A stretch of DNA of 64,000 nucleotides from Nitrospira sp. CR1.1 (GTDB lineage: Bacteria; Nitrospirota; Nitrospiria; Nitrospirales; Nitrospiraceae). Every line of letters starts with the position of its first letter. Position 1 is the stretch's first letter. Shown in pieces: positions 806 through 59,340 of this stretch. The notes beneath the pieces were generated by a model. The model was not told the origin of the DNA and ran no database searches. It was given only the letters and a program-made list of their open reading frames with translations. The position numbers and the translations under genes are program-made. Where the stretch lies: NCBI GenBank assembly GCA_014055465.1, contig WIAF01000001.1, forward strand, positions 124,001 to 188,000, written 5' to 3'.

Positions 806-1749
806 TGGTGATGCTCCTCTCCTTGCACGATCATCGGATTGGTCGCATCCGCACTCGCGAGATAGTAGTGATTCACCAGGCGATAAATTTCAGCGCGCTT
901 CGCCTCCCACGTCGGAAGCCCCTCGCTCGTCAGGATATCGCTGATGTTGTCGTGCAGCATATGCAGATTGTCGAAGATATGCGCAATCTCCGGATACCGC
1001 GCGGCAAACTGCGGGCTCAGTTCCGCCGTGAGTGGCATGAACGTCCACTCTACGGGCGGCTGATCGAGATACCGGCGATAGGTTGTGAGAATCGGACGCA
1101 CCGCCTGAGCTTTCGCGGCCAGGTCGCGCGCGGCCAGCAGTGGATCGTAGACCGCGACCTGCAGATAGTGGTACGACCAAATCGTGGCGTTGAAGAGCGG
1201 GAACCGCTGCCGAAACGCTTTGGAATAGGGGAAGGCATCCAGGCGGCGGTGGTCCAGTTGCTTGGACGTGATGGCATACTCGCTGTCCTTGTAATAGGTC
1301 AAGACATCCTGGATCGCGCGATCCTTGTCCGGTTCGTCCGACACGGCAATGTCATACGTGGCGCGGTGCAACGCATGCGCTTCGTCGAAGGTGTTCTGCG
1401 CGCGCCAGGCCAGCTTCATGTAGGTGGGGGCAATGGCCTCTTCGTTGGGGTTCAGTCGCGGCTTGGTCGCGATGAACGCGAGCGTCTCCTTCCGGGCCCG
1501 CTCCTCAATGGCCGGTACGTCCTGACCGCCGGTCAGCAGTAAATTCTCGTACAAATTGGAATGGCCGAAGTCGACGCCATTGAACTCACTGTCGAGTTCG
1601 GCCAGATCTTCCCGCAACGAAAAATTCCACAAGGCGCGGTAATAAAACCGCTTGTCGCGCGGTTCGAACTGACTGCACCCCGCCAGCGCGAGGGCGGCCG
1701 CGGCTGTGGCCACGACCGCGATGCTGCGCACATATTTTCCAATGGTCAT
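802..1749 (-). CDS. Lipoprotein of unknown function ending in a His tail
   Basis: 315 residues from the ATG at 1749. A hydrophobic signal peptide ends in the lipobox ALAGC (Cys about residue 24), so the protein should be lipid-anchored. The mature part is alpha-helical with many Tyr, Trp and His residues and no motif I recognise. It ends GEEHHH, a possible metal-binding tail. It lies between the His-rich DUF4396 gene and the barrel gene on the same strand and overlaps the barrel start by 4 bases, so the three probably act together at the envelope. An upstream in-frame Met at 1782 lacks the tidy signal-peptide start. The function is unknown to me. Confidence 0.75.
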   Translation of the reverse strand: MTIGKYVRSIAVVATAAAALALAGCSQFEPRDKRFYYRALWNFSLREDLAELDSEFNGVDFGHSNLYENLLLTGGQDVPAIEERARKETLAFIATKPRLNPNEEAIAPTYMKLAWRAQNTFDEAHALHRATYDIAVSDEPDKDRAIQDVLTYYKDSEYAITSKQLDHRRLDAFPYSKAFRQRFPLFNATIWSYHYLQVAVYDPLLAARDLAAKAQAVRPILTTYRRYLDQPPVEWTFMPLTAELSPQFAARYPEIAHIFDNLHMLHDNISDILTSEGLPTWEAKRAEIYRLVNHYYLASADATNPMIVQGEEHHH

Positions 1750-1931
1750 GCTGAATCGCTCCTCAATCACCGTGATCAACATCCCGGCCCGGACTATTCA
1801 TGAATGCCTGTTCTGCCGTCCGATTCTCTCGCCCTCGAGGCAGTTCTCGCCCGGCCTCGCTCGCGAGAGGGTGACGGGAAGTCGGGTCCGGCATATCGCA
1901 GCAGCGGATCGACCATTGCAACCGAACCGTC

Positions 1932-2528
1932 TCAGTGGCCATGCTGCCCATGCACCAGCGCATGGCCCTTGCCCCGCGCAATCAACCAGCGGTTGACGGG
2001 AAATGCCGCGACTCCGGCCATGAACAGTGACACAATCAGGCTGCCCCAGAACAGTGGATCAAGCAATCCGGCTTCCATGGCGCCGGGAATGATGACCATG
2101 AGGGCGTTGTCCACCAATTCCATGGCCGCCATCGAGAGGGTATCGGAGGCAAAGGCCAACCCCAGCGCCGTTCCCCAGGCCATACCCGCCCGCCGCAACG
2201 GATAGACGGTCATGGCATAGCCGAAGGAAAAAGCCAGCGCAATAGCAAGTCCGACCGTAGGCCAGCTACTCCAACCCAACGCCGTGCCGATCGCCATCCC
2301 AAGGACTTCGCCGATCGTGCAGCCGCTCAAGCAATGCAGGGTCGCCATGAGCGCCGTTCGATCGAGTGACGGTGTCCGGTGTTTCTCTTCACCATGCTCC
2401 TGATGGTGTCGATGGCCAAGATGATCGCGCTCAGCCTGTCGGCTTTCATGGTCATTTCGATGATGATCATGTCCTTTTGACTCTGCGTGGCGTGGTGCGG
2501 TTGCAGTCGCCAAATGATACCTGCTCAT
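1932..2528 (-). CDS. DUF4396 integral membrane protein with His-rich N terminus
   Basis: 198 residues. The first 55 are hydrophilic and very rich in His, Asp and Glu (clusters HDHHRNDHE and GHRHHQEHGEEKH), followed by four or more membrane segments (for example TIGEVLGMAIGTALGW and DPLFWGSLIVSLFMAGVAAF). The membrane part matches my knowledge of the DUF4396 family, often found beside heavy-metal genes. The Cys in LHCLSGCTIGE at the first membrane entry could also bind metal. The C terminus is again His-rich (HALVHGQHGH). I infer metal sensing, buffering or transport at the inner membrane. No metal can be named. It is the first gene of the minus-strand set running down to position 20. Confidence 0.7.
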   Translation of the reverse strand: MSRYHLATATAPRHAESKGHDHHRNDHESRQAERDHLGHRHHQEHGEEKHRTPSLDRTALMATLHCLSGCTIGEVLGMAIGTALGWSSWPTVGLAIALAFSFGYAMTVYPLRRAGMAWGTALGLAFASDTLSMAAMELVDNALMVIIPGAMEAGLLDPLFWGSLIVSLFMAGVAAFPVNRWLIARGKGHALVHGQHGH

Positions 2529-2813
2529 GCGCAGCCTCCCTGTGAGTGGTGATATCTGCCGTGCACCACTACAGACGGAACGAGGTGGAAATTCTTACAG
2601 CGGCAGGTGGAGCAACCAACTGGCGCGGATTGCGGAATGACTCTCTGTCCTTCTGCTTTGTACTCACCAGTCCGAATACGTGTATTTCTCACTGACTTTC
2701 CAGCTTCCTGCCGTCCAGTTTTGCGACAGCGCCGGAAAAGTCTTGATCTCGACCTTGGAGGCATGCTTGACTGAACCGTGTTCCGCATCTTCCCTGTTTA
2801 ATGGAGGGCTTGC

Positions 2814-3320
2814 ATGCCGCGTGGAATTCACCGCACTCTCTATAGCCTCTTCTTTCTCCTCCTCATCCCCCTCGTGACCCAAGCCGCCGACATGCCTGAT
2901 ACCAGCCTGACGCCCTTAAAATTCCTTGCGGGAGAATGGAAAGGAGCGGACGCGGACGGGAAGGCCCACAAGATCGCGTTTGCCCTCAGCTCAGGCGGCA
3001 CGACTCTCACCGAAATCCTGACGCCTCCCGATAGCCCTCCGATGACGACCATGTATTATAGCGACGGCGACCAGCTGATGTTGACGCATTATTGTTCGCT
3101 CGATAACCAGCCGCGCATGCGCGCCGCGGCAATCAAAGACGGAGAGAAAACCATTGTGTTTTCCTTCGTGGATGCGACGAATTTGAAGAATCCAACCGAT
3201 GTGCACATGCATCAGCTTTCGATCGAAGTCAAAGACCACGACCACTTCACCCAAACCTGGACATTGAGCAAGGCCGGAAAAGACGTGCCGAAAGTGTTTG
3301 CCTTTGAGCGTGTGAAATAG
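2814..3320 (+). CDS. Small secreted protein, possible lipocalin-like fold
   Basis: 168 residues with a clear signal peptide (hydrophobic core LYSLFFLLLIPLVTQA, cleavage about residue 24). The mature part starts LTPLKFLAGEWKG, the kind of opening seen in small beta-barrel proteins of the DUF1579/lipocalin-like group, and continues as alternating beta strands. Likely periplasmic. It precedes a methyltransferase gene by 34 bases on the same strand. The 285 bases upstream, between it and the divergent DUF4396 gene, show no other gene. The exact role is unknown. Confidence 0.65.
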   Translation: MPRGIHRTLYSLFFLLLIPLVTQAADMPDTSLTPLKFLAGEWKGADADGKAHKIAFALSSGGTTLTEILTPPDSPPMTTMYYSDGDQLMLTHYCSLDNQPRMRAAAIKDGEKTIVFSFVDATNLKNPTDVHMHQLSIEVKDHDHFTQTWTLSKAGKDVPKVFAFERVK

Positions 3321-3354
3321 CCCTCACTTACGTCGTCCCACAAGGAGCCCGCCG

Positions 3355-4212
3355 ATGCCGTCACAAACACCCGCAGCTCTGATCGAAGCCCAGCGAGAGG
3401 ATTGGAATCGCGTCGCCGCCGGCTGGGATAAATGGGATCAGTTTTTCAATCGTACCATGGCATTTATCAACCACCGGCTGGTGGCTGATGCGCGCATCCG
3501 CCCGGGACTTCAGGTCTTGGACTTGGGGTCAGGGACCGGGTATCCGGCGCTTTTGGCCGGTGAGGTGGTGGGGGCTGATGGAACGGTGGTCGGCATCGAT
3601 CTCGCTGAATCCATGCTGGCGGTGGCCTCTCGCAAAGCGAAGACGCTTGGCCTGCAACACGTCAGCTTTCGGACCGGAGATGTGACAGCATTGCCGTTCG
3701 ACTCCGGTTCGATGGACTCGATCATCAGCCGGTTCTGCTTGATGTTCCTGCCAGAGATTCCCAGGGCCACTGCGGAAATCGCGCGCGTGCTGAAGCCGGG
3801 AGGATATGTCGCAGCCGCCGTCTGGTCGGCCCCGGACAAAAATCCCTTCATTCGCATTCCGATGGACGTGATCAAAACCATCACGCCCCTTCCACCGCCC
3901 GATCCCGAGGCGCCGGGGATCTTCCGTCTGGCGCGTCCAGGCGACTTGGCAGGCATGTTCGAACGTGCCGGGCTCATACTGCTGGATGATCAGGAGTTCA
4001 CGGCCGAAGTGACCTACGCCACGGCGGAAGAGTTTTTTCTCGGACTGATGGACGTCGCCGCACCAATCCAAAACCTCTTTGCCAAACTCACCCCGGCGCA
4101 ACAAGCCGAGGCGAAACGCGGCATCATCAAGGCTGCAAACGAATACCGACGACCGGAAGGGGTTTCATTGCCGATTGCGGTGCGGATCGTCAGCGCACGC
4201 AAGCCTCAGTAA
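3355..4212 (+). CDS. Class I SAM-dependent methyltransferase
   Basis: 285 residues. The SAM-binding motif I is VLDLGSGTGYPALLA (about residues 58-72), followed by the acidic post-I motif VVGIDLAESML and motif GDVTALPF. ARVLKPGGYVAAAVW is the usual strand-4/5 region of ubiquinone/menaquinone (UbiE)-like and small-molecule methyltransferases. A good ribosome binding site (AAGGAG) precedes the ATG. The substrate is not deducible. It probably shares a transcript with the small secreted protein gene upstream and is followed by a strong hairpin at 4227-4263. Confidence 0.85.
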   Translation: MPSQTPAALIEAQREDWNRVAAGWDKWDQFFNRTMAFINHRLVADARIRPGLQVLDLGSGTGYPALLAGEVVGADGTVVGIDLAESMLAVASRKAKTLGLQHVSFRTGDVTALPFDSGSMDSIISRFCLMFLPEIPRATAEIARVLKPGGYVAAAVWSAPDKNPFIRIPMDVIKTITPLPPPDPEAPGIFRLARPGDLAGMFERAGLILLDDQEFTAEVTYATAEEFFLGLMDVAAPIQNLFAKLTPAQQAEAKRGIIKAANEYRRPEGVSLPIAVRIVSARKPQ

Positions 4213-4226
4213 CGCTCCAAGCGGGG

Positions 4227-4263
4227 CACATGCCCGGCGACGGCGTGCGTCGCCGGGCATGTG
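4227..4263. terminator. Bidirectional terminator-like hairpin
   Basis: A perfect inverted repeat with 16-base arms (4227-4242 and 4248-4263) and a 5-base loop GCGTG lies between the 3' ends of two convergent genes (methyltransferase and the Lys/Glu-rich protein). There is no clear U tract on either side, so termination may need Rho or be inefficient. Confidence 0.6.
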
Positions 4264-4279
4264 GCGGACTGACCGGACC

Positions 4280-4558
4280 TTAGTCGGTGACTTTTTCCTT
4301 CAACTCCTTCACCTTCCCCTTCGCCCGCTCTCCGGCTCCCTTCATTTTGCCTTTTGCCCGTTCCAACTCAGCCTTCGTCTCGTTCCCCTTCAACTCCTCT
4401 TTCATCGCCTTCGCCTCGCCCTTCATCTCCTCGACATCCGCCTTCATTTCACCCTTGGCCTTCTCCATCTTGGCCTTGGTCTCACTGGCCTCCGCAGAAA
4501 ACATCATTCCTACCGACACACACACGCCGATAACCAGCGCCGTCATGAATGTACGCAT
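4280..4558 (-). CDS. Secreted Lys/Glu/Met-rich helical protein
   Basis: 92 residues. A signal peptide (TALVIGVCVSVGMMFSAEA) is followed by about 65 residues of low-complexity, charged sequence built from short repeats such as KAKGEMK, EMKGEAKAMKEE and RAKGKMKG. This would form a long amphipathic helix, similar in composition to CsbD-like and LEA-like stress proteins. The ATG at 4558 is preferred over 4564 because GGAGG lies 6 bases before it. Likely a periplasmic stress or hydration protein by analogy only. Confidence 0.6.
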   Translation of the reverse strand: MRTFMTALVIGVCVSVGMMFSAEASETKAKMEKAKGEMKADVEEMKGEAKAMKEELKGNETKAELERAKGKMKGAGERAKGKVKELKEKVTD

Positions 4559-9671: not shown

Positions 9672-9943
9672 ATATGACTCATGGAGTGTGAACAGCTACA
9701 ATTGGGGCTTTCGGCCGCGAAGCTAATTTGCCAATGCTTCTCTATGGCGATCCCCACGGCTCGTGAACCATACCCCATGCCTGTTGACCGTTCAACAGGC
9801 CGTAGCGGTGAGGCGATCCCTGGCGTATGTTTCTAGGCACACAGCCCGTATGCTATTCCTATGAACCCAGTCCCCTAACAGCGCCCACCAGTTATCCGAT
9901 GCACTTCCTACTCCGCTGATCGAAAGGCGTCACCCTCGCCCCC
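9672..9943. other. Intergenic stretch with a small hairpin
   Basis: Non-coding interval upstream of the Mrr gene. The only structure seen is a perfect hairpin at 9780-9799 (arms CCTGTTGA and TCAACAGG, loop CCGT). No gene, RNA or clear promoter is recognised. The interval continues into the mobile repeat at 9944. Confidence 0.5.
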
Positions 9944-10148
9944 TATCAGGATGCGGAAAAAGTCCACCAGCGGCGTTCTCGCATCGTTCAGAGGCTCAAC
10001 GTACGACGAGAGTACGATTCGCCGCTTCACTCGCTGCGGCCTTGCTGGATGGCCTTGTTGCGCATCCTGCCTACTATCGTGATACCAACACGCCACGTGA
10101 GCTGATCGCGGCGTGGCGTGCAAAAATGAGTTTTTCCGCAGCCCGCTA
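9944..10148 (+). repeat. ~200-bp non-autonomous mobile element, copy A
   Basis: The element (9946-10146) is flanked by TA on both sides (9944-9945 and 10147-10148). Its ends are inverted repeats: TCAGGATGCGGAAAAA at the left and, read inward from the right, GCGGGCTGCGGAAAAA. An internal copy of the left terminus in opposite orientation is seen at 10061-10070 (CGCATCCTGC). It matches copy B (58649-58855, opposite orientation) along its whole length with about 15 differences by eye. It contains no real gene. TA flanks and size suggest a MITE moved by an IS630/Tc1-mariner-type transposase, which is not in this window. Confidence 0.85.
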
Positions 10149-10228
10149 TGGATGGATCCTTGGTCGCAAACACTTCTTCTGTCATGGCCCTCACAGAACA
10201 GACGACCGGTCTCCTCTAAAGTGACCGC

Positions 10229-13734: not shown

Positions 13735-14772
13735 ATGGCACTGACGCTTGTGGGCCAACACAAACCGCTTGCGTCTTCTGCCGAGCAATTGAAGGTACTT
13801 GCAGAGATCGGGACCTGCCTGCCGTTTGAGGAACAACTTCGCCGAAGTGGTCTGTCCCCGCTCCACGCGACCGGCATCACAGTGCTTCAACTCAATGTGG
13901 GCAAACTCTGCAACCAAACGTGCCGCCATTGCCACGTAGACGCAGGGCCTGACCGGACCGAACGCATGTCTCGAGAAACCGCTGAGCAATGCATCGCGGC
14001 CCTGGCGCAGACGGACATTCCAACCGTCGACATCACCGGCGGAGCGCCGGAACTCAATCTCAATTTTCGTTGGCTGGTCGAGCAGGCCCGTGCCCTGAAC
14101 CGGCACGTGATGGACCGCTGTAACCTCTCGGTACTGCTGTTGCCCTCGCAGGCCGACCTGGCAGCCTTTCTCGCGGCACACCAGGTAGAGATCGTCGCCT
14201 CTCTTCCCTATTACCGCGCCGCGCAGACCGACGCGCAACGGGGTGAGGGTATCTTCGACAAATCCATCCAGGCGCTTCGCCTGCTGAACGCGCTCGGCTA
14301 CGGCCGTGAGGGCAGCGGGTTGCTCTTGAATCTCGTGCACAATCCAGTCGGCGCCTTTCTGCCTCCCAAACAGGAGGCGATCGAGGCGCAATTCCGGAGA
14401 GAGCTCCGCACCAAGCATGGCGTGGAATTCAACCACCTCTATACGATCACGAACATGCCGGTGAGCCGGTTCCTTGAATTTCTACTGGAAAGCGGCAATT
14501 ACCAGGGATACATGGCACGTCTTGCGAGTGCGTACAATCCCGCTGCCGCCGCCGGCGTCATGTGCCGCTATACCCTCTCGGTCGGCTGGGACGGGGCGCT
14601 CTACGATTGTGATTTCAACCAGATGCTGGACCTTCCGGTGCGGCCCGATGCCCTTTCGCACATCCGGGACTTCGATCCGGCACGACTCCATCAGCGGGAG
14701 ATCACCACTCGAAATCATTGTTACGGATGCACGGCGGGAGCGGGCTCGTCGTGCGGCGGTGCGGTGACCTGA
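13735..14772 (+). CDS. arsS: Radical SAM protein ArsS (arsenosugar-type)
   Basis: 345 residues. The radical-SAM cluster motif is CNQTCRHC (CxxxCxxC), preceded by ITVLQLNVGKL and followed by DAGPDRTERM. VDITGGAPELN is the GGxP-like SAM-contact strand. The C-terminal domain (NHCYGCTAGAGSSCGG) is Cys-rich, as expected for the auxiliary cluster of the ArsS/SPASM-related family. ArsS works after ArsM, adding a deoxyadenosyl group to dimethylarsenite on the route to arsenosugars. The start is uncertain because neither the ATG at 13735 nor an in-frame TTG at 13720 has a clear ribosome binding site. Confidence 0.92.
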   Translation: MALTLVGQHKPLASSAEQLKVLAEIGTCLPFEEQLRRSGLSPLHATGITVLQLNVGKLCNQTCRHCHVDAGPDRTERMSRETAEQCIAALAQTDIPTVDITGGAPELNLNFRWLVEQARALNRHVMDRCNLSVLLLPSQADLAAFLAAHQVEIVASLPYYRAAQTDAQRGEGIFDKSIQALRLLNALGYGREGSGLLLNLVHNPVGAFLPPKQEAIEAQFRRELRTKHGVEFNHLYTITNMPVSRFLEFLLESGNYQGYMARLASAYNPAAAAGVMCRYTLSVGWDGALYDCDFNQMLDLPVRPDALSHIRDFDPARLHQREITTRNHCYGCTAGAGSSCGGAVT

Positions 14773-14911
14773 TTACCATGCTGACACCGCCGTCCAGCTT
14801 CGTTCTCAGCCGTGTACCCGCCTCACCGTACTTATCCGGTACGCGTCGGCGGACTCACATCCCTGCAGTCTTGCCGGATCGACGCTTTGAGCATTCTGCG
14901 TGGGAGACCGC

Positions 14912-58515: not shown

Positions 58516-59340
58516 TCATCGGAGCAACAACCAAAGGCCGAGTCTCTCCCCGTAGACCCTCGCCAGGCTGTCCGGTTCAATGAGCCAGTACCGCATCTCC
58601 ACGCGATCGCCGATCCCCATCAACCCTACATTCATCATCAACATGCCCTAGCAGGCTGCGGAAAAACTCGTTTTTTTGCACGCTACGCCGCGATCAGCTC
58701 ACGTGGCGTGTTGGTATCAGGATAGTACGCAGGATGCGTAAAAAGGCCATCCAGCAAGGCCGCAGCGAGTGAAGCGGCGAATCGTACTCGTGTCGTACGT
58801 TGAGCCGCTGAACGAGGCGAGAACGCCGCTGGTGGACTTGTTCCGCATCCTGCTAGAGGGCGATCAGCGCATGAGTGGAGTCGATTGCTCCGGGCAGCGG
58901 CCCCCCCGGCATCTGCCAGATCGGTAAACAAGAAGGCCGCCATATTGACCGCATTGCTGTCGAAAAGATTGCCCACTGCAAGATCGAAGGCCCCGAGCCG
59001 CACGGCGGCCAGAGACGTGCCCAACTCAGGCAACGTCGTCACCACCGCCACGAGCATATGCTCGAACGCCGCCTGCGCCCAGACGCGTGTGTCGCGATGG
59101 ACAAGGTGATGAGGCCAAGAGTGAGCATGTTGGCAAGCACCGCGCCGAAGGGATCTCCAGCGGACAGGTCCGGCGCATCGAGCAAACAGGCGCTGACGGT
59201 CGTGAACACCTCGGGGCAACGACGTCGCAGCCGCCATCAACACGGCGCCGACCCACAATCACCCGAGTCCTGTCGACGACGCTATCTGATCGCCGCAGCG
59301 CTTCGAGCACCACACTACGGCAAGTGCCAGCCTGCGGCGT
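58516..59340 (-). pseudogene. Broken Na+/Ca2+ exchanger gene, split by a mobile repeat
   Basis: Reading the minus strand in three frames recovers pieces of one exchanger: GDQIASSTGLG, a stop, then LWVGAVLMAAATSLP, frameshift, EVFTTVSACLLDAPDLS and GDPFGAVLANMLTLGLITL, frameshift, TTLPELGTSLAAVRLGAFDL and AVGNLFDSNAVNMA, frameshift in a run of seven G, PGGPLPGAIDSTHALIAL. Here the repeat element (58649-58855) is inserted. After it the gene resumes as GMLMMNVGLMGIGDRVEMRY and WLIEPDS and ends at TGA 58516-58518. The G(T)SLPE/LPELGTS and GN(L)F-SN signatures mark the CaCA family. The gene is dead, with at least one stop and several frameshifts. Confidence 0.9.
58649..58855 (-). repeat. ~200-bp non-autonomous mobile element, copy B
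   Basis: The element (58651-58853) is flanked by TA at 58649-58650 and 58854-58855. The terminal inverted repeats are GCAGGCTGCGGAAAAA (left) and, read inward from the right, GCAGGATGCGGAACAA. It is inverted relative to copy A at 9944-10148 and nearly identical along its whole length. The exchanger pseudogene continues in frame across the insertion when one TA is removed, so the element borders and 2-base target duplication are visible directly. Confidence 0.9.

Follow-up and report, generated by a model that had tools for sequence, protein, structure and literature searches.

The analyzed DNA, a 64,000-nt stretch of the Nitrospira sp. CR1.1 genome (hereafter, the window), contains two near-identical copies of a short element in opposite orientation. 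Both copies were recognized in the initial annotation, and their alignment (92% identity over 222 columns, E-value 7e-86, with copy B matching at 58642–58863 on the minus strand) confirmed the pair and its coordinates within 1–2 bases. Copy A is a 199-bp MITE (9947–10145, plus strand), the ends of which were set by the divergence of flanks in alignments of 19 copies from the same genome and 81 copies from the genus. It is enclosed by a 4-bp target duplication, CTAT, present in identical form on the left (9943–9946, plus strand) and on the right (10146–10149, plus strand). The whole sequence begins with CAGGATGCGGAAAAAGTC and ends with GAGTTTTTCCGCAGCCTG; the former is the left terminal inverted repeat (9947–9964, plus strand), 16 of 18 bases of which match the ends of IS5-family elements. 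The left inverted end is CAGGATGCGGAAAAAG. The family consensus of the right end, read on the minus strand, is CAGGCTGCGGAAAAACTC, from which the right terminal inverted repeat of copy A (10128–10145, minus strand) deviates by one change, being CGGG there. The inverted termini are seen both in the 19-copy alignment and in an end-pattern search, where CAGGMTGCGGAAAAA with at most one mismatch has 61 occurrences in the CR1.1 genome and 0 when read backwards.

Two parts are distinguished between these ends. The left part of copy A (9947–10069, plus strand) is a structured core, a hairpin of ~123 nt with an outer, an internal, and an apical stem, as supported by a covariance-model match (9938–10076, 149 bits) and by pair counts in 28 sequences. 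The right part (10070–10145, plus strand) is an arm with the right terminal inverted repeat at its end. The element had been suggested to be composite on the basis of an internal reversed copy of the terminus; the sequence in question, GCGCATCCTG (10060–10069, plus strand), is real and the element is composite, but this "terminus" is the 3' arm that closes the outer stem of an independent structured repeat, not merely a nested copy of the element.

Copy B (58652–58852, minus strand) has the same organization, with its core at 58730–58852 on the minus strand (model match 58723–58861, 151 bits) and the target duplication CTAG behind the right end (58648–58651, minus strand) and before the left end (58853–58856, minus strand). 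It lies inside a Na/Ca-exchanger-like gene (58516–59258, minus strand), the 3' part of which is left as a remnant at 58516–58647 on the minus strand; the assignment is based on a Pfam Na_Ca_ex match of a relative's protein. In addition, a run of G in this gene contains a frameshift and the insertion site has a stop, so that the gene either was a pseudogene or became one. The joined flanks of copy B with one repeat were used as a query against the genus genomes, and the empty site was found in all 13 aligned relatives (13/13), where the gene is uninterrupted and CTGG occupies the place of the two CTAG repeats of CR1.1; TTGG-like variants of the preceding codon occur once at this site in the relatives. 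Therefore, the insertion of copy B is specific to the CR1.1 lineage.

A third, diverged core without the right arm of the MITE, missed in the initial annotation, was found at 14765–14905 on the plus strand (model match of 57.5 bits). It directly follows the TGA stop codon (14770–14772) of a radical-SAM/DUF3641 gene, and a phosphate-transporter (PHO4) gene lies shortly behind it. The DUF3641 match reaches residue 348 of 350, hence this TGA is the natural end of the gene.

Copy number and spread of the MITE

A 205-base query gave 46 matches in the CR1.1 genome (4.44 Mb, 31 contigs), 19 of them full-length, so the further copies expected in the initial annotation do exist. In the alignment of these 19 copies with their flanks, similarity breaks off abruptly at a common base on each side. 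The majority of the remaining matches cover only the left ~127 bases of the query, and an 81-base consensus of the right arm, including its CTAG, has 22 matches in the same genome. Matches to the MITE query were found in all 29 Nitrospira genomes searched (CR1.1 included); the relatives provided 81 full-length copies with flanks, reduced to 75 distinct copies by a stricter pass. The MITE inserts in both orientations. Its movement in one relative (G016) was recent, since 37 of the 91 pairs among 14 of the 18 fetched copies reach an identity of 98% or more, with 100% in the best pair. One MITE has identical flanks in CR1.1 and in another genome, G006 (loci L016 and L078), so that either the insertion is common to both genomes or a contig has strayed.

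Altogether, the element is short, has no gene, is present in many copies, and is bounded by terminal inverted repeats and a target duplication, and an autonomous partner with the same ends exists in the relatives. The initial description of a composite and mobile MITE that lacks a gene and depends on a transposase encoded elsewhere is thereby supported. We do not claim a preference of the MITE for stop codons: among the 75 distinct copies, the left end lies at a stop in 25 and the right end in 26, which is only a modest excess over 22% (15/68) for any CTAG in the window, as counted with open frames of 60 codons or more.

Target duplication and autonomous IS5-family elements

The 4-mers on either side of the MITE are identical in 64 of the 75 distinct copies (CTAG in 47, CTAA in 10, TTAG in 6, and CTAT in 1, the latter being copy A). 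The identical non-CTAG pairs are thus 17, compared with a mean of 2.5 and a maximum of 8 in 20,000 shuffles. As the bases around TA are also repeated at these non-CTAG sites, the duplication is 4 bp long with the consensus YTAR, which is the target duplication described for IS5 in an excerpt of PMC10359306. The TA reported on both flanks in the initial annotation is therefore present, but only as the middle of a 4-bp repeat. Its assignment to a TA-duplicating, IS630-type element does not hold: an IS630/Tc1-type MITE with a 2-bp duplication would account for the TA that flanks nearly every copy on either side, and 2-bp and 4-bp duplications are indistinguishable at CTAG sites, but it is highly improbable and is rejected on the basis of the non-CTAG sites, where the bases before and after TA repeat on both sides (17/75), so that repeated coincident mutations would be required; moreover, the matching autonomous elements found near DUF772 genes all encode IS5-family transposases.

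These autonomous elements were identified by listing the DUF772 transposase genes of the genus and scanning their surroundings for MITE ends. Three relatives yielded four elements of ~1.3 kb: G020 has two (L160 and L177), and G001 and G018 have one each (L164 and L165, respectively). Each has CAGGCTGCGGAAAAAC at both ends and is flanked by either CTAG/CTAG or TTAG/TTAG. The encoded transposase contains DUF772 and DDE_Tnp_1 domains and matches the NCBIfam model NF033581 (IS5 family) with 285 bits, above the cut-off of 140, whereas the match to the IS1182 model (203 bits) is under its cut-off of 270; together with the YTAR 4-bp duplication, this places the elements in the IS5 family. The consensus right end of the MITE is identical in 18/18 bases to the left ends of L164, L165, and L177.

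Several related elements were observed in the course of this search. One IS5-like element of CR1.1 itself (L096/L095, contig C1, ~862–4400) is CTAG-flanked, has the ends CAGGCTGTTGACAAAC, and is split by IS21-like istA/istB. Four other loci (L167, L168, L169, and L158) contain sister IS elements, the ends of which are the variants CAGTGTGTTGACAAAC, CAGGCTGTTGACAAAC, and CAGTCTGCTGAAAAAC. The ends of at least one core (L033) match those of the TTGACAAA type, as though cores were adapted to more than one transposase. In one relative (G004), 14 genes for DUF772 transposases have identical scores, but there is only one weak MITE match.

We consider, with a probability of roughly 0.88, that the feature is a composite, non-autonomous IS5-family MITE of ~200 bp moved by the IS5-type transposase of an element with the same ends. 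In the proposed mechanism, this transposase, provided by an autonomous element of ~1.3 kb, would recognize both ends of the MITE, and insertion would occur at YTAR sites, usually CTAG, with duplication of 4 bp. The left ~123 bp are a structured hairpin repeat in its own right, the 5' end of which is also the end that the transposase would bind, and the right ~76 bp would supply the second functional end. The inner end of the core differs from a working end by one position, GCGC for GCGG, and the outer right arm is perhaps needed for this reason. In the hairpin, the same difference shows up as a mismatch that is conserved for the most part.

Some observations weigh against this reading. No autonomous element with the MITE ends was found in the CR1.1 genome, where the single end matches outside MITE copies and the DDE_Tnp_1 and DUF772 genes were inspected. 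Of the 28 relatives, all of which have MITE matches, only five (G001, G002, G013, G018, and G020) have a close transposase (77–100% identical); in G016, only a broken piece with 61% identity was seen in the assembly. Furthermore, the MITE and the IS elements have only their ends in common, their interiors being unrelated, and the flanking 4-mers are unequal in 11 of the 75 copies. We infer that a transposase of the IS5 type probably moved the MITE and that the CR1.1 lineage would have lost its source, the only relatives seen in this genome being distant and interrupted (transposase pieces with 42–46% identity, split by an IS21-like insert).

The core as a structured repeat

The partial matches of ~127 bases represent a repeat in its own right. 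In an alignment of 28 of the 33 collected sequences, 90.2% of the cells in the outer, internal, and apical stems are paired, compared with 33.6–40.8% when the stems are slid by 1–3 columns. Both-sided changes were observed in 21 of the 37 pairs, including 7 of the 8 pairs of the internal stem, which lies outside any terminal repeat. All five measures exceed those of all 500 shuffles, a result that related sequences can also give without structure. The fold z-scores are −6.7 and −6.6 for two solo cores, −3.4 for copy A, and −1.0 for the weak core of the window. In the outer stem (alignment A1, columns 20 and 129), a G–G mismatch is mostly conserved, and the adjacent pairs covary.

The covariance model identified at least 110 core copies in the CR1.1 genome (111 places, a few of which are the same core on the other strand); since 150 of 2238 candidates were scored, 111 is a lower bound, and the 9 flank columns of the model, with their CTAG consensus, favor cores next to CTAG. 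No match to Rfam families was obtained in the window at the gathering score, or in four loci at E-values up to 1. With strict filters, core matches were found in 50 of the 118 sampled Nitrospirota genomes, including all 23 listed from the same family as CR1.1, and the loop pattern also found the core in Geobacter-type genomes. Whole-genome searches with the model yielded 26, 7, and 19 matches in the genomes of L318, L320, and L257, respectively, and none in the genomes of L252 and L229.

In some regions, the cores form clusters of several per 10 kb, partly in tandem (L011, C19:1–12500; L215, C7:155800–173400; L217, C6:100200–108400). An integron attC array was considered for the cluster on C19 and set aside: the cores lie between ordinary genes, and they have no attC core sites, as judged by the attC core-site motif.

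Position of the cores relative to stop codons

Of the 110 separate cores located in the searched loci of the CR1.1 genome, 20 have the MITE right arm and 90 lack it. The latter are termed solo cores, although this category, defined by the lack of the right arm of the 205-base type, includes some composites with other arms. With respect to same-strand stop codons, defined as the ends of open frames of at least 100 codons on the strand of the core, 34 of the 90 solo cores start exactly at a stop and 47 start within 2 nt of it, against a background of 0.13 per position. A similar distribution was observed for 106 cores from named contigs (46 exactly at a stop and 57 within 2 nt). These were obtained from 100 of 120 loci among at least 120 matches to one loop pattern, excluding cores near locus ends; several of the loci come from one and the same genome or are orthologous to CR1.1 loci. 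On the opposite strand, the right end of the core was at a stop (offset 0) in 0 of 90 and 0 of 106 cases.

A stop triplet at the left end of the core closes a long frame in 34/41 and 46/65 cases in the two sets, respectively, compared with 6–12% for stop triplets over the window, and this comparison is independent of the CTAG bias of the core model. The stops used are TAG (68), TAA (29), and TGA (7). The third core of the window conforms to this placement. The left neighbors of 209 cores are rich in YTAR (CTAG in 41, TTAG in 18, and CTAA in 12). No target duplication was seen around the non-MITE cores (10/209, compared with 8.8 in shuffled pairs). Since the MITE inserts in both orientations, whereas the core is found at stops in one orientation and without duplication, we treat the core as a separate entity with its own retention or movement.

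Cores recur at the same location in orthologous genes from different species. Among 740 base-pair comparisons in 20 of 21 pairs (263a/269 was left out, as it is not an ortholog pair), 73 changes are compensatory, 24 are one-sided but keep the pair, and 108 are losses or gains of pairing. Some of these ortholog cores differ at up to 54% of paired positions, and for these, exchange for another copy and change in situ are equally likely.

Interpretation of the cores outside the MITE

Three explanations of the solo cores were weighed. Selection may keep them as structured 3' ends of mRNAs, acting as terminators, stabilizers, or processing signals, a serious possibility that falls somewhat short of even odds. 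It agrees with the exclusively sense orientation, with both-sided changes in nearly all pairs of the internal stem (7/8), and with the presence of cores behind the same gene across species, where compensatory changes outnumber one-sided pair-keeping ones (73 vs. 24). However, pairs lost or gained (108) outnumber the compensated ones, and a terminator or stabilizer explains neither the exact zero distance to the stop codon nor the scarcity of TGA.

It is rather unlikely that the solo cores are giant REP-like palindromes moved strand-specifically and without duplication by an HUH/Y1-type mechanism with cleavage next to NTAR. Similarly doubtful is its extension, by which the stop codon would supply NTAR and only insertion in the sense orientation would leave the gene intact. 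The succession of NTAR and an oriented, duplication-free palindrome fits this explanation and reproduces the tetranucleotide-plus-palindrome arrangement of REPs, but at ~123 nt the core is longer than the few tens of nucleotides expected (of the order of 20–35 nt for REPs, according to an excerpt of PMC2817692), and its ends resemble the terminal repeats of DDE elements. A regular-expression scan for Y1/RAYT proteins, made with an unvalidated pattern on the fetched pieces only, gave 0 hits among 5998 open frames.

Finally, the origin of solo cores from old MITE insertions with a decayed right arm and duplication is improbable, as MITEs lie at stops by their left (25/75) or right (26/75) end alike while other cores do so by the left end only, and no trace of a duplication is seen, despite the resemblance of core ends to terminal repeats and the YTAR enrichment of left neighbors.

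We tentatively describe the core, at close to even odds, as an undescribed class of element: a three-stem palindrome of ~123 nt that is anchored to stop codons (NTAR) in the sense orientation without target duplication, occurs in Nitrospirota and Geobacter-type genomes, keeps its pairing while the stem sequence turns over, and was captured by an IS5-type end to give a freely inserting MITE. What would matter here is the core and not the MITE, which alone is one more family. A repeat fixed to the base behind stop codons, in the same register in nitrifiers and their relatives, would be either a 3'-end RNA element absent from Rfam or a mobile element that spares genes.

Comparison with known systems

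The MITE with its IS5 partner is a known kind of element. It has the same terminal bases and the same 4-bp YTAR duplication as the IS5 family (NF033581 group), autonomous copies of which occur in the same genus, and differs from it in having no transposase gene and only the ends in common. In the open-licence literature searched (Nitrospira repeats, MITEs, Geobacter repeats, REPs, and IS5), neither the MITE nor the core was found, although Geobacter supplements may include the core; the excerpts of PMC12542641, PMC6006769, and PMC3543383 hold nothing on the element.

By description, the MITE is similar to Chunjie, a 235-bp MITE of Geobacter uraniireducens with 37 further copies (PMC10969869, in excerpt), in its size, intergenic copies, and terminal and direct repeats, and the core is also present in Geobacter-type genomes. 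Geobacter genomes are described, in excerpts of two studies, as containing numerous palindromic multicopy intergenic families, some of them common to other genomes (PMC2700814, PMC2996986). These resemble the core by description, and the core may be among them.

REPs offer a further parallel: according to PMC2817692, they consist of a GTAG-type tetranucleotide with a palindrome behind it and are present in more than 100 copies. Nitrospira moscoviensis appears in a table of REP-like counts in the excerpted RepRanger report (PMC12306157). Similar to the REP/RAYT system as described in PMC2817692, the core combines a short tetranucleotide with a palindrome, a high copy number, and strand orientation. 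In contrast to REPs, it has roughly four times their length and a conserved structure of three stems, and it is located at the stop codons of ordinary genes. In this stop-anchored form, the core looks new.
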